DNA of 64,000 nt. It comes from Paenibacillus sp. FSL H8-0048 (GTDB taxonomy: Bacteria > Bacillota > Bacilli > Paenibacillales > Paenibacillaceae). A program made the position numbers and the translations under genes. The stretch covers positions 6,634,001 to 6,698,000 of the forward strand of contig NZ_JBBODF010000001.1 of NCBI RefSeq assembly GCF_038002825.1, read 5' to 3'. The notes beneath the pieces were generated by a model. That model saw only the letters and a list, made by a program, of their open reading frames with translations, searched no databases and was not told the origin of the DNA. Below are positions 1-57,502 of the stretch, in pieces. The first letter of the stretch is position 1. Each line of letters begins with the position of its first letter.

Positions 1-909
1 GTCTATCTCTACAATGTAAAATGGCTTGTCGTTATTGTGCTTGTATACAGCTTGTACACAATTTTTCAGAGTACACAGACGCCGATTGCCGACTCTTATG
101 CAGTGAATGCAGCTTCAGCCGCAGGTACCTCGTTCGGCACCATCCGGCTGTTCGGCAGTATCGGCACGGCGCTGGGAGGGTACTTCGGCGGACTGTATCT
201 GAACTGGATGGGAGTTACAGAGCTATGGATTCCCTTCCTGGTCTTCAACCTGCTTGCTCTTCTGCTCGTGATTACCATCCCGGTGAATGTGGAGCGGCGG
301 ACGCAGCATGTAACCTTCACCAGCGGAATCAGGCAGCTGCTGGGCAACCGGGTCTTTCTGCTGTTTCTCGCCGGTTGTTTTCTGGTGAACCAGACGCTAA
401 CGGCCTTCAACTCCTTCTTTGTCCTGACCTTCCAGATGGCGGGCGGAAGCTTCGCATGGTCAGGCATCGCCCTGATGATTGCTTCCATTACCAGCGTTCC
501 GGCAATGCTTGTGGCCGCAAGAGTCCTGAAGAAGTACGGTTATGAGAAAACATTGATGCTGGCCTCTGTTGTCTACATGCTCCGCTGGGCGATCCAATGG
601 CTCATTCCTGTTCCCGGTGTTATGATAGGTGTCCAGACGCTGCACGGCATGTCGTTTGGTTTCTTTTACATTGCAGCTGTGGAATATGTGGCCTCTATTA
701 CAGGCAAAGAGCTGCAAGCCACAGGACAAAGCCTGTTCAATATGGTATTTGTCGGTCTTGGCGGCATTGCCGGGAATCTGCTGAACGGGTATCTGCTGGA
801 GACCGGCGGCCCGGGGCTGATGTATTTCTCCTGTACGGTCAGCGCCGCACTCGGCGCATTGCTGCTGTACAAGGTAAGCTCAATTTCACGTAAGCAGCAG
901 TCTGAATAA
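1..909 (+). CDS. MFS transporter, C-terminal part (5' end outside window)
   Basis: The reading frame is open from base 1, so the gene starts upstream; about 302 residues are visible. The protein is almost entirely hydrophobic helices, with a central charged loop around residues 95-110 (VNVERRTQHV). This is what is expected of the second part of a 12-helix major facilitator permease of the LacY/nucleoside-symporter-like (MFS_1_like) type. Motifs such as GTIRLFGSIGTALGG fit that group. It would act in the cytoplasmic membrane as a proton-coupled importer or exporter; the substrate cannot be read from the sequence. The stop lies 18 bp before the AraC-type regulator at 928, so the two may be co-transcribed. 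Confidence in MFS is high and in the substrate nil. Confidence 0.8.
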   Translation, partial: VYLYNVKWLVVIVLVYSLYTIFQSTQTPIADSYAVNAASAAGTSFGTIRLFGSIGTALGGYFGGLYLNWMGVTELWIPFLVFNLLALLLVITIPVNVERRTQHVTFTSGIRQLLGNRVFLLFLAGCFLVNQTLTAFNSFFVLTFQMAGGSFAWSGIALMIASITSVPAMLVAARVLKKYGYEKTLMLASVVYMLRWAIQWLIPVPGVMIGVQTLHGMSFGFFYIAAVEYVASITGKELQATGQSLFNMVFVGLGGIAGNLLNGYLLETGGPGLMYFSCTVSAALGALLLYKVSSISRKQQSE

Positions 910-11306: not shown

Positions 11307-11335
11307 GTGTTGTTCAGGTAGGTGCGCGGGCTAAA

Positions 11336-11459
11336 TGTAATCGAAAAACCGATTACATTGCGCCGGGTGGTGGTGTGCGGGCCGAATGTAATCGAAAAAC
11401 CGATTACATTGCGCCGGGTGGTGCCATGCGGGCTAAATGTAATCGAAAAACCGATTACA
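11336..11459 (+). repeat. Three-copy 51-bp-period palindromic repeat (family A, short array)
   Basis: Three perfect copies of an inverted repeat, TGTAATCG, six bases AAAAAC, then CGATTACA, start at 11336, 11387 and 11438, so the spacing is exactly 51 bp both times. The GC-rich spacers (CGCCGGGTGG-type) are similar to one another but less conserved. The same 22-bp palindrome with the same spacing recurs in 11 copies at 31029-31559. The array lies between a terminator and the xylanase promoter. Because 51 is a multiple of three, several frames stay open through it, but these are not genes. Confidence 0.95.
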
Positions 11460-11545
11460 TCATTATGCAGAGGCGGAGGCGTGTGGTCCGAATCATGTGC
11501 TGGCACGAGGGGGGATACGGAAAACCGCTAATTTTTCTGCTCCCC

Positions 11546-30864: not shown

Positions 30865-30927
30865 CGGAGTGTAGGAAGGGGCAGAGTTTATACAGATATA
30901 GTTTGTAAGCGTTATCCCTTATAACAG

Positions 30928-30962
30928 AAAGGTTTCGGCTCATTTGGGCTGAAGCCTTTTTT
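30928..30962 (+). terminator. Terminator of the TetR operon
   Basis: AAAGGTTTCGGC pairs with GCTGAAGCCTT, with two G-T/mismatch positions, followed by six T. Confidence 0.75.
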
Positions 30963-31028
30963 GCTGCTGGCCGGGTAAAAGCAAATACAATGGGCAGCGG
31001 CGAGGACTGTGGGAAAGCGTGGGCGGAA

Positions 31029-31559
31029 TGTAATCGAAAAACTGATTACAATTGGACCGGGAGCGGCGCGTGGGCGGAATGTAATCGAAAAACCGATTAC
31101 AATTGGACCGGGAGCGGCGCGTGGGCGGAATGTAATCGAAAAACCGATTACAATTGGACTGGGAGCGGCGTGTGTGCCGGATGTAATCGAAAAACCGATT
31201 ACAATTGGACTGGGCGTGGCGTGTGAGCCAAATGTAATCGAAAAACCGATTACATTGGACCGGAAGCGGCGCGTGGGCCAAATGTAATCGAAAAACCGAT
31301 TACAATTGGACCGGGCGTGGCGTGTGTGCCGGATGTAATCGAAAAACCGATTACAATTGGACTGGGAGCGGCGCGTGGGCGGAATGTAATCGAAAAACCG
31401 ATTACAATTGGACCGGGAGCGGCGCGTGGGCGGAATGTAATCGAAAAACCGATTACATTTGGACCGGGAGCGGCGTGTGGGCCAAATGTAATCGAAAAAC
31501 TGATTACAATTGGACCGGGAGCGGCGCGTGGGCGGAATGTAATCGAAAAACCGATTACA
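31029..31559 (+). repeat. Eleven-copy 51-bp-period palindromic array (family A, long array)
   Basis: Copies of the inverted repeat TGTAATCG, AAAAAC, CGATTACA start at 31029, 31080, 31131, 31182, 31233, 31283, 31334, 31385, 31436, 31487 and 31538. The step is 51 bp except once, where one A is missing and the step is 50. Nine copies are perfect; the first and tenth have one change in the right arm (TGATTACA). The spacers are themselves related (TTGGACCGGGAGCGGCGCGTGGGCGGA with small variations), so this is a tandem repeat and not a CRISPR. It lies between the TetR-operon terminator and the LacI operators of the sucrose importer. Apparent reading frames through it are an artefact of a period divisible by three. 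Confidence 0.97.
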
Positions 31560-31603
31560 ATACCACCGGAAGCGGCGGCGGGTTTTATTAGCTAAAATTT
31601 AAA

Positions 31604-31645
31604 TATGATAACCGATTGACATAAATATGTTAACCGGTTATCATA
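31604..31645 (+). promoter_or_regulatory. Tandem LacI-type operators before the sucrose-type importer
   Basis: Two pseudo-palindromes, TATGATAACCGATTGACATA (31604-31623) and TATGTTAACCGGTTATCATA (31626-31645), lie 22 bp apart centre to centre, about two helical turns. A third copy with the same AACCGGTTAACATA half occurs at 38233-38252 before a LacI gene. This links the importer operon to one or both LacI proteins at 35134 and 38308. Confidence 0.75.
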
Positions 31646-36123: not shown

Positions 36124-36486
36124 TACGCCGGACTGGCAGACCTCCTGCCAGCATATGCCCTAATAGAGTATCAGATTAATATAGTGGAACAGGCAGGATG
36201 AGACAAATGTATGCGAAAAACAGGCATGACAAGACAGAGACCTTGTCACCCCCAGGAATGAAAATAAGTGGGTGGCATCCGTCGCATCCATTCTAAAAGA
36301 GGCTGTAGTCGTCAACACTACATATACAAATCAAAGGGCGGAAACGGTTACTGGGATACACCCCGTGCGAAAAACTGTTCTATTGCGCTTTTCGAGCATC
36401 GCCTATTGTAGCCCCCAAAAGTACGTGTATTAAATTACACTCACTCGAGCGCATGATTTGTAAGCTGACGATGGAGGATGATTGGA
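36124..36486 (+). other. Gene-free left flank of the IS110 element; possible bridge-RNA locus
   Basis: No coding frame is supported. CTGGCAG and CTGCCAG (36132-36150) form a stem after the LacI stop. The motif GCCCTAATAGAGTATCAGA near 36159 resembles GCCCTATTAGAGCATCAGA near 37888, on the far side of the transposase. AAAACTGTTCTATTGCGC (from 36371) resembles AAAACCCGTTCTGCTGCGC (from 37778). In IS110-group elements the left non-coding end is known to encode the structured bridge RNA that guides target choice. This roughly 320-bp stretch is the candidate here, but I cannot assign the RNA ends. Confidence 0.4.
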
Positions 36487-37719
36487 ATGGATGCTGTACG
36501 TATGTGTTGCGCCGGTCTGGACGTGCACCAGGAAACCGTTGTGGCCTGCGTGTTGAAAGGACCGATCGAACAGAAACCCCAATGTCACCTGAAAACCTTT
36601 GGGACGACAACCAAAGAATTGCTAGGCCTGCAAGATTGGCTGAGTGAACAAGGCTGTCGGGAGGTGGTGATGGAGAGTACGGGCGTGTTATGGAAACCGG
36701 TATGGAACATCTTAGAGGGCAGTTGTGATCTGGTCTTGGCCAACGCCCAGCGGGTAAAGAATACGCCGGGTCGAAAAAGTGACATGCAAGATGCGCGCTG
36801 GTTAGCGCAATTGCACCGTTGCGGGCTCATTGAAGGCAGTATGGTGCCCGAACAAGACATCCGGGATTTGCGAGACTTGACCCGTTACCGGAGTAAGATG
36901 GTGCAGGCGGTGACGGCGGAGAAAAACCGCATTCACAAAATCCTGCAGGATGCCAACATTAAGCTAACCACCTTTATGTCCGATCTATATGGGGTTTCGG
37001 GACGGGGCCTGCTCCAGAAGATCATGGACGGCGAGGTCATCGACGAAGGGACCGTTAAAAACCTGGTCAAAACCCGTTTGAAAAAGAAAGTTCCGCAGTT
37101 GCTAGACGCGCTCAATGGCAAGTTGCGCCGTCATCACCGCGAGATGATTCGAGACCACTGGGACCACTTGGTCTATTTGGAGAAAAGGATCACGGAGCTG
37201 GAAGCTCGAATCGAGGCGAAGGCAGAACCGTACCTGGAGGTGATTGAACAAATTGACTCCATTCCAGGAATTGAGCGGACGTCTGCCGTGACCATCTTTG
37301 CCGAAGTGGGGCCGCATGTCGCGGAAATGTTCCCGAGTGATGCGCAGTTTGCATCATGGGCGGGGGTGTGTCCAGGGAACAACGAAAGCGCGGGAAAGCG
37401 AAGAAAGTCAAAAACGATGCAAGGGAACAAGCATCTGAAAGGGGCCTTGTGTCAGGCGGCTTGGGCGAACTCTCGCTCCTCGAACCGGATCGGCCAATTT
37501 TTTCGACGAATACGTAAGAGAAGAGGCGATAAAAAAGCAAACGTCGCCACCGCGCATTTGCTGATTCGAATCCTCCATGCCCTGATGCGGGAGAAGAGGT
37601 CATACCAAGAAATAGACGTCTCACTAGGCGATGAGACGTCCAAGAAAAACACGTTAGATAGGTACGTGAACTATATCCAGCAGTTAGGATATAGCGTGCA
37701 ATTAAATCCTATCCAATAG
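36487..37719 (+). CDS. IS110-family transposase (DEDD recombinase)
   Basis: 410 residues from ATG 36487, which has GGAGG (36473-36477) correctly spaced; ATG 36478 would touch that site. The N-terminal RuvC-like domain shows the DEDD residues in GLDVHQETVV, VMESTGV and KSDMQDARW. A central coiled-coil-like stretch is followed by the Transposase_20 domain (IPGIERTSAVTIFAEVG, WAGVCPGNNESAGKRRKSK), including the serine thought to act in strand exchange. The frame is intact, so the enzyme may be active. It recombines DNA with a bridge-RNA guide in well-studied relatives. Confidence 0.95.
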   Translation: MDAVRMCCAGLDVHQETVVACVLKGPIEQKPQCHLKTFGTTTKELLGLQDWLSEQGCREVVMESTGVLWKPVWNILEGSCDLVLANAQRVKNTPGRKSDMQDARWLAQLHRCGLIEGSMVPEQDIRDLRDLTRYRSKMVQAVTAEKNRIHKILQDANIKLTTFMSDLYGVSGRGLLQKIMDGEVIDEGTVKNLVKTRLKKKVPQLLDALNGKLRRHHREMIRDHWDHLVYLEKRITELEARIEAKAEPYLEVIEQIDSIPGIERTSAVTIFAEVGPHVAEMFPSDAQFASWAGVCPGNNESAGKRRKSKTMQGNKHLKGALCQAAWANSRSSNRIGQFFRRIRKRRGDKKANVATAHLLIRILHALMREKRSYQEIDVSLGDETSKKNTLDRYVNYIQQLGYSVQLNPIQ

Positions 37720-37732
37720 TCTTCCCTTTTTC

Positions 37733-37754
37733 AAAAAAAACGAAACGTTTTTTT
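37733..37754 (+). terminator. Palindromic terminator after the transposase
   Basis: AAAAAAACG, AAA, CGTTTTTTT: a perfect 9-bp stem whose T-rich arm also serves as the T-run. It can stop transcription from either side. Confidence 0.7.
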
Positions 37755-37979
37755 GGGGCGGTGGGTCTTTTTTTGTCAAAACCCGTTCTGCTGCGCATTT
37801 TCCGGTACTTTTATTTTCGTATTAAACCGAATACAATAGTAGGTGGTTTCGTCTTGCTGATCCAATCCAGCATTTAAATCTGACGCTGCCCTATTAGAGC
37901 ATCAGAGTTAGCATCGTGAGTATTCGCGCAAGAGTAATTCGGATGCTGTAGGCGCTGGAACGGTAGCAAATGTAGTTTG

Positions 37980-38154
37980 TACAATAGAATGCTGCAAAAA
38001 AGGCTTTAAAATAGAATCTATTGTACTCCGTACAATTGAATGTTGGAAAAAGGCCCATTTTCTCCCGAAAAACGATATTCCAATGTATGAAATACAATAG
38101 AATCTCATTTTACGGTCAGCTATGCGTTTTCTGTTGCAGGAAATACAATTACCC
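37980..38154 (+). repeat. Paired 51-bp-period TACAAT repeats (family C)
   Basis: TACAATAGAATGCTGC plus an A-run and GGC at 37980 is matched by TACAATTGAATGTTGG plus an A-run and GGC at 38031, 51 bp away. A second pair starts TACAATAGAATC at 38093 and TACAATT at 38144, again 51 bp apart. An inverted TACAATAGA lies at 38017-38025 between the first two. The core differs from families A, B and D. Confidence 0.7.
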
Positions 38155-38232
38155 ACTTGAATTTAGGAGTAGGAGTAGGAGTAGGAGTAGGCCCTCGATG
38201 TTCATTATAGTTTTCAAGCTGCTGCTGCCCTA

Positions 38233-57472: not shown

Positions 57473-57502
57473 AAAATTTATTAATATATGGAGGTAATTA
57501 TA

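Follow-up and report, generated by a model that had tools for sequence, protein, structure and literature searches.

The closest described systems are the REP, BIME and REPIN sequences, short palindromes found in high copy number outside genes, which are targets of IS110, IS256 and IS3 elements (PMC3733652, PMC3116915; here and below, citations refer to the portions of text available for each paper). Tagged REP families occur mostly in Proteobacteria, the GTAG kind is associated with RAYT transposases, and the CGTC REPs seem to be without a RAYT (PMC3733652). Head-to-tail REP dimers are described there as absent, under-represented or negligible. Insertion sequences that target REPs belong to the IS3, IS110, IS4, IS256 and IS5 families (PMC1525189). 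Among them, IS621 inserts in REP elements, and its bridge RNA pairs with target and donor via two loops (PMC11208160). Single-strand elements of the IS200/IS605 type act on the lagging-strand template (PMC6006769).

We analysed a stretch of 64,000 nucleotides from Paenibacillus sp. FSL H8-0048, called hereafter the window. It contains an array which is probably one locus of a REP-like, non-coding palindrome family that resizes as head-to-tail arrays and is the target of an IS110-family element. The family resembles REP, BIME and REPIN sequences in being made of short, high-copy palindromes outside genes that are hit by the same types of insertion sequences, but its unit has neither a GTAG nor a CGTC tag, with GGCCRAA and TTNGGC standing at the palindrome feet. 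Its arrays are head-to-tail, without inverted head-head or tail-tail pairing, no RAYT over the cut-off accompanies it, and it is oriented relative to replication in several species. Because tag, inverted pairing and RAYT were tested and not found, the family was not filed as REP.

An eleven-unit array in the window

The following features concern the array and its flanks.
31017..31577, + strand: 11-unit tandem array of 51-bp period, with the loop AAAAAC on the + strand (Tandem Repeats Finder and palindrome positions)
11321..11460, + strand: second array of the same unit, with three palindromes (11336, 11387, 11438) and 2.7 copies, missed by the original prediction
30927..30962, + strand: terminator-like hairpin and T-tract preceding the array (our own finder; absent from the list of a simple scan)
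31616..31644, + strand: promoter-like TTGACA-17-TATCAT following the array, conserved among the 10 relatives compared

The original prediction, made from the letters of the sequence, was that eleven copies of a palindrome lie between 31029 and 31559. All eleven were recovered, starting at 31029, 31080, 31131, 31182, 31233, 31283, 31334, 31385, 31436, 31487 and 31538, with nine steps of 51 bp and one of 50 bp. The palindrome is TGTAATCG-AAAAAC-CGATTACA, and Tandem Repeats Finder reports for 31017-31577 a period of 51, 11.0 copies and 90% matches. The arms had been said to stay intact: this applies to 9 of the 11 palindromes, those at 31029 and 31487 having one change each, and the loop AAAAAC is present in all 11. 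When up to 3 mismatches were allowed, the palindrome gave 15 matches in the window, where 0.18 would be expected (100 shuffles gave at most 2). These matches comprise the 11 of the main array, three in the second array (11336-11459) and an isolated one at 57493, which has 3 mismatches and may be due to chance.

The array lies, as had been noticed, between a terminator and a promoter: a T-tract, detected by our own finder and not by the simple scan, precedes the first palindrome by 70–72 bp, and the TTGACA-17-TATCAT sequence follows. This promoter may be LacI-operated, as had been proposed; the LacI-like label of nearby ORFs comes from our own reading. The spacers are related, neighbouring ones in arrays of this genome (G000) differing by 12.5%, in contrast to the unrelated spacers of a CRISPR, an interpretation that had already been set aside. 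The observation behind the original prediction is therefore real; its interpretation was supported in part, as detailed below.

A large family of head-to-tail arrays

The exact palindrome is present in 192 copies in the 7.46-Mb genome. A pattern with a GTTTTY loop and at most 2 mismatches gave 376 matches, 251 on one strand and 125 on the other. For array statistics, a sample was made of the places among the matches listed and of an unbroken 620 kb adjoining the window. It contained 54 clusters, from which 10 single copies with 3 mismatches were dropped, leaving 44 arrays of 1–15 units each. The step was 51 bp in 172 of 181 cases, and steps of 50, 52, 53 and 58 bp were also found. Every sampled array of at least two units was head-to-tail; in four species, orientation was mixed within 2 of 52 groups.

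The search across relatives that had been proposed revealed a large family. Exact arms were found in 9 of 100 genomes of the genus, with 14–206 copies each (reversed pattern, 0 matches), and were absent from the other 91. When the loop was included in the pattern and up to 3 mismatches were allowed, matches appeared in 35 of the 100 genomes, several of which had only 1–2 (reversed pattern, 2 in all) and one of which, G112, had 415. The general pattern TGTANNCG-NTTTTN-CGNNTACA, also written TGTANNCGNTTTTNCGNNTACA, was present in 40 of 394 Paenibacillaceae genomes and in 5 of 19 genera, a few genomes having a single match; the reversed control gave 3 matches in all 394. The unit can be approximated as GGCCRAA-TGTANNCG-RAAAAY-CGNNTACA-TTNGGC plus a G-rich linker, over 51–52 bp, and units of other species mostly follow one another at 51 or 52 bp. 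The form with loop RAAAAY was matched by 74 stretches in a collection of species genomes, from which close relatives may be absent. These belong without exception to Paenibacillus piscarius P121 and P. silagei DSM 101953, which we take to be G086 and G088 from the positions of their copies.

The palindrome did not prove to be a known named repeat. No Rfam family matched within the window at gathering score, no match to the palindrome was found in viral, plasmid and phage collections (where records close to this genome may be absent), and no description of the family was found in the literature searched, as far as the portions of text available go. The palindrome diverges by 2.6% and the spacer by 12.5%, a comparison that is biased because the copies were chosen by their arms. 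One array (924876) has a visible higher-order repeat. As a separate observation, four loci of another genus (L129, L131, L133 and L134) have near the unit a second palindrome-like stretch, with centre GAAATTTC or similar, which suggests a mosaic repeat.

An IS110 element inserts at the edge of the loop

Comparison of the window with genome G113 revealed a further unit, missed by the original prediction, which is split at 36208/37827 by an insertion sequence.
36222..37826, + strand: IS110-family insertion sequence at the loop of a single unit (9 identical genome copies; ends uncertain by a base or two)
36208..36221, + strand: left half of the split unit, TGTATGCGAAAAAC (G113 comparison and flank reading)
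37827..37835, + strand: right half of the split unit, CCGAATACA (G113 comparison and flank reading)
36478..37719, + strand: IS110 recombinase ORF, 413 aa, DEDD_Tnp_IS110 and Transposase_20 (domain search)
36365..36377, + strand: candidate target guide GTGCGAAAAACTG in the left non-coding end (match to target)
36427..36434, + strand: candidate donor guide GTATTAAA, repeated at the right end of the element, 37819-37826 (sequence match)

Full-length copies of the element numbered 38, in 8 of the 11 genomes searched (9 in G000, 10 in G101, 7 in G112, 4 in G114, 3 in G088, 2 each in G087 and G086, 1 in G119). G113 had fragments only, G095 weak matches only, and G115 none. The flanks of all 38 copies were read. 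They correspond to 37 sites, since two copies form a head-to-tail dimer in this genome (G000:C1:5934753-5937963), whose outer flanks are the halves of one unit. All 37 sites were located at the loop of a repeat unit: the left flank has GAAAAAC, and CGA is found among the first four bases of the right flank. Of the 38 copies, 28 have both flanks matching a strict unit pattern; the dimer pair and 8 copies in units with a few substitutions make up the remaining 10. The element thus has the DEDD and Transposase_20 domains and the site-specific insertion of the IS110 family, and it inserts at one point, the edge of the loop. The repeat had been suggested to be the substrate of a REP-like transposase, and the IS110 insertions bear out a role as transposase substrate: its use as an IS110 landing site is the secure part of our account. 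Two smaller pieces were also seen. A short IS110 fragment (L348) lies in a place only partly unit-like, and a piece of about 140 bp (L356, G086:C56:218240-218381), with both IS110 ends and without recombinase, lies in a repeat unit and could be a non-autonomous form.

The parallel with IS621 and the REP-targeting IS110 elements consists of an IS110 recombinase, one insertion point in a palindromic repeat and a left end matching the target (PMC11208160, PMC1525189). The Paenibacillus target differs, being GAAAAAC^CCGA, and the bridge RNA is here a predicted one. The left end contains a stretch of 10–12 nt that matches the target, as expected of a bridge-RNA guide, for which GTGCGAAAAAC is a candidate. 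The motif GT[G/T]CGAAAAAC[C/T]G was found about 143 bases in, in each of 14 distinct full-length left ends. When its variable base was compared with that of the target, the guide-target combinations were 11 T-T, 0 T-G, 14 G-T and 12 G-G (Fisher p = 0.0066), which is moderate evidence, since the copies of any one genome are related to each other and T is frequent in targets. The left end folded no better than its shuffles (z = −0.54). The match suggests that a bridge RNA, with its guide in the left end, may direct the element to the loop. Besides 37 natural insertion sites, the IS110 partner supplies a guide-target pair that can be tested in a Gram-positive host.

Arms change in compensating pairs

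Inspection of the arms revealed several fully paired types, among them TGTAATCG/CGATTACA, TGTATGCG/CGCATACA, TGTATTCG/CGAATACA, TGTAGTCG/CGACTACA and TGTACACG/CGTGTACA; differently paired types (TGTAATCG, TGTATGCG, TGTAGTCG) coexist within one genome. A mismatched type, TGTATGCG/CGAATACA, is also common, and many units have imperfect arms, pair 6 being Watson-Crick in 62%. Over 162 distinct 22-mers, 71.2% of arm cells were Watson-Crick paired, versus 10–36% when slid by 1–3, and versus 63.8% (maximum 65.7%) in 300 shuffles. Cells changed on both sides numbered 88, twice the shuffle mean of 44 and above the maximum of 58. None of these figures is to be read as a probability, because the sequences are related. 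The most strongly coupled columns were arm positions 5 and 18, which are partners in the palindrome. The arms therefore change in compensating pairs, and their pairing is kept in relatives. Exchanges of the G-T type were equally common on both strands (summed counts, 122 versus 114).

Orientation follows replication in several species

The sense of a unit was defined by the strand carrying AAAAAC, which in this genome was the locally G-rich strand for 37 of 44 arrays (binomial p = 5e-6), with 7 disagreeing. With the terminus taken opposite dnaA, 34 of the 44 arrays agreed with a common orientation relative to replication and 10 disagreed. In the 684 kb beside the window, all 26 groups pointed in the same direction. 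In four species, 51 of 52 groups (orthologous arrays being counted more than once) had the common orientation, compared with 66–69% of ORFs. Where the left-hand gene is on the opposite strand, 9 of 10 groups kept this orientation, in a set that includes some IS genes as neighbours and counts orthologues repeatedly. Divergent gaps were under-used (6 of 52 groups, versus 195 of 837 gaps) and convergent ones favoured (19 of 52, versus 158 of 837).

The dnaA gene was located in ten genomes and the terminus assumed to be opposite. All 49 matches agreed in G063, where 38 reverse matches were in one replichore and 11 forward matches in the other; two of these 11 were among the matches listed and nine were placed by sorted order. 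In G087, 20 of 20 among the matches listed (of 113) agreed with an opposite terminus, and one group of 3 units was reversed in the segment compared. The count was 49 of 50 in G112 among the matches listed (of 179), nearly all from one replichore. In G101, it was 14 of 20 among the matches listed (of 33), and would be 19 of 20 with a terminus at 0.55–1.30 Mb. In G109, the arrays were unbiased with respect to replication (14 of 27 among the matches listed), and 16 loci of this genome, once read, had whole units in both orientations. Orientation thus follows replication more closely than neighbouring genes in several species, and is not a law of the family, because G109 is without bias. G-richness of the linker as a product of the replication strand was rejected, since in G109 the G-rich linker accompanies the unit whichever way the latter points.

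Maintained pairing, with more than one arm type in a genome, symmetric wobble and, in several species, an orientation tied to replication more than to transcription together point to a process at the DNA level. In the reading that we favour, action as a DNA hairpin would be what keeps the palindrome, and the orientation seen in several species would arise because the AAAAAC strand is the lagging-strand template, where single-stranded hairpins can form; G109 remains an exception. Action on the lagging-strand template of the IS200/IS605 kind would explain both the conservation of the hairpin and its orientation (PMC6006769).

Search for a mobilising enzyme

RAYT transposases were searched for in 16 genomes: none scored above the NF047646 cut-off, and 6 genomes gave weaker matches. 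The Y1 transposase domain PF01797 was found in 56 of 100 genomes of the genus, including 8 of the 9 with the exact palindrome, and was absent from G112. No IS200/IS605 enzyme could be tied to the repeat, and TnpA was rejected as mobiliser, because G112 has no PF01797 and the ends of the copies compared, which we take to be IS605-type from our reading of their ORFs, are unrelated to the repeat. At two loci of two species (L105, L106), an IS605-type TnpA/TnpB element was observed within about 150 bp of an array. Elements with Transposase_mut (IS256-type) and rve (IS3-type) domains are also inserted inside arrays, outside the loop (G000:C1:6829575-6832898 and 7162690-7165965).

A more extended proposal, which we make only tentatively, is that of a RAYT-less, REP-like family beyond the GTAG and CGTC super-families, which would spread and multiply through single-stranded hairpins on the lagging-strand template by means of some enzyme. 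An RNA-guided IS110 element, with a guide that tracks the palindrome sequence, would now use the repeat as its programmed attachment site. How repeats of this kind spread could be tested on a natural example in this large direct-array family of Paenibacillaceae without RAYT, replication-oriented in several species and not in at least one.

Arrays change size at orthologous loci

The gene following the window array was found in 10 of 18 genomes searched. Over the 11 species, the locus contained 11 units here, 7 in G114, 5 each in G113, G087 and G115, 4 in G112, 3 in G086, 2 in G101, a single degenerate one in G088 and none in G095 and G119. In nine species, a terminator T-tract precedes the array and the conserved promoter follows it. 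The gene preceding it differs from species to species, and a terminator-like hairpin similar to that at 30927..30962 is also present ahead of the array in the relatives carrying one. Orthologous segments of 400 kb likewise showed arrays gained, lost and resized. Clean empty sites were rare, and a closer view of one "empty" site revealed a remnant of a unit. The neatest case is that of a single unit in G113 (contig position 275827), which is flanked by a short direct repeat, so that either an insertion or a deletion between the repeats is possible. Slippage or unequal recombination may be responsible for the changes in length.

Such changes at fixed loci would also be expected of a passive satellite, which spread long ago, is now altered by slippage and recombination only, and is merely exploited by the IS110 element, with a palindrome and an orientation that serve nothing. 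Local homogenisation of the arrays, with the higher-order repeat at 924876, and the failure of the Y1 transposase and RAYT searches to find a mobiliser go in the same direction. However, paired arm changes exceed those of shuffles, palindrome and loop persist across five genera, and 26 of 26 groups in one orientation are not explained by chance, so that we regard a passive satellite as rather unlikely.

Still less probable is a platform for a dimeric DNA-binding protein, a role that had been suggested from the array alone. Palindromes about five helical turns apart would then organise the chromosome or insulate neighbouring genes, and the conserved spacing and arms, as well as the position between terminator and promoter in nine species, would suit this role. 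Against it speak the differently paired arm types in one genome, the 91 of 100 genomes of the genus that do without the exact form, and the range of 0 to 11 units at a single locus.

Coding and transcript readings

The original prediction had excluded a coding repeat, and no sign of coding was found. Of the 44 arrays, 24 are crossed by an ORF of at least 100 aa reaching more than 150 bp beyond and 20 are without such an ORF; because 51 bp equal 17 codons, ORFs run mechanically through many arrays. Crossing ORFs of at least 150 aa numbered 23, and 20 of them were scanned against Pfam. Two were real genes (ROK and glycosyl hydrolase 10), with domains starting after the array. The others had no Pfam domain over the array, apart from weak matches to the repetitive stretch in four, where no stretch passed alone and PF10653 (L043) was above the whole-protein cut-off. 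Arrays were therefore taken as lying outside genes, and a coding repeat was rejected, because no convincing domain covers the array in the 20 longer ORFs scanned.

The gene before the array is co-oriented with it in 42 of 52 groups, compared with 63% of all gaps, and a same-sense terminator is located upstream of 19 of the 44 arrays, versus 7 on the other side. Both would suit the hairpin comb that the original prediction had also proposed, in which read-through transcripts carry hairpins that protect 3′ ends or stop transcription, but this role is highly improbable, given that 9 of 10 groups keep the common orientation beside a preceding gene on the opposite strand, that wobble is symmetric between strands (122 versus 114) where a strand-specific excess would have been a sign of RNA, and that the window array comes after the terminator.

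Other repeats in the window

Two further repeats were observed. A TAGGAG hexamer is repeated in 4.7 copies at 38164-38191, and the orthologous stretch of G087 is without this form. Short repeated stretches of the type GTACAATWGAATG, at 37960-38150, are shared with G113 and G087 and perhaps correspond to another repeat family.
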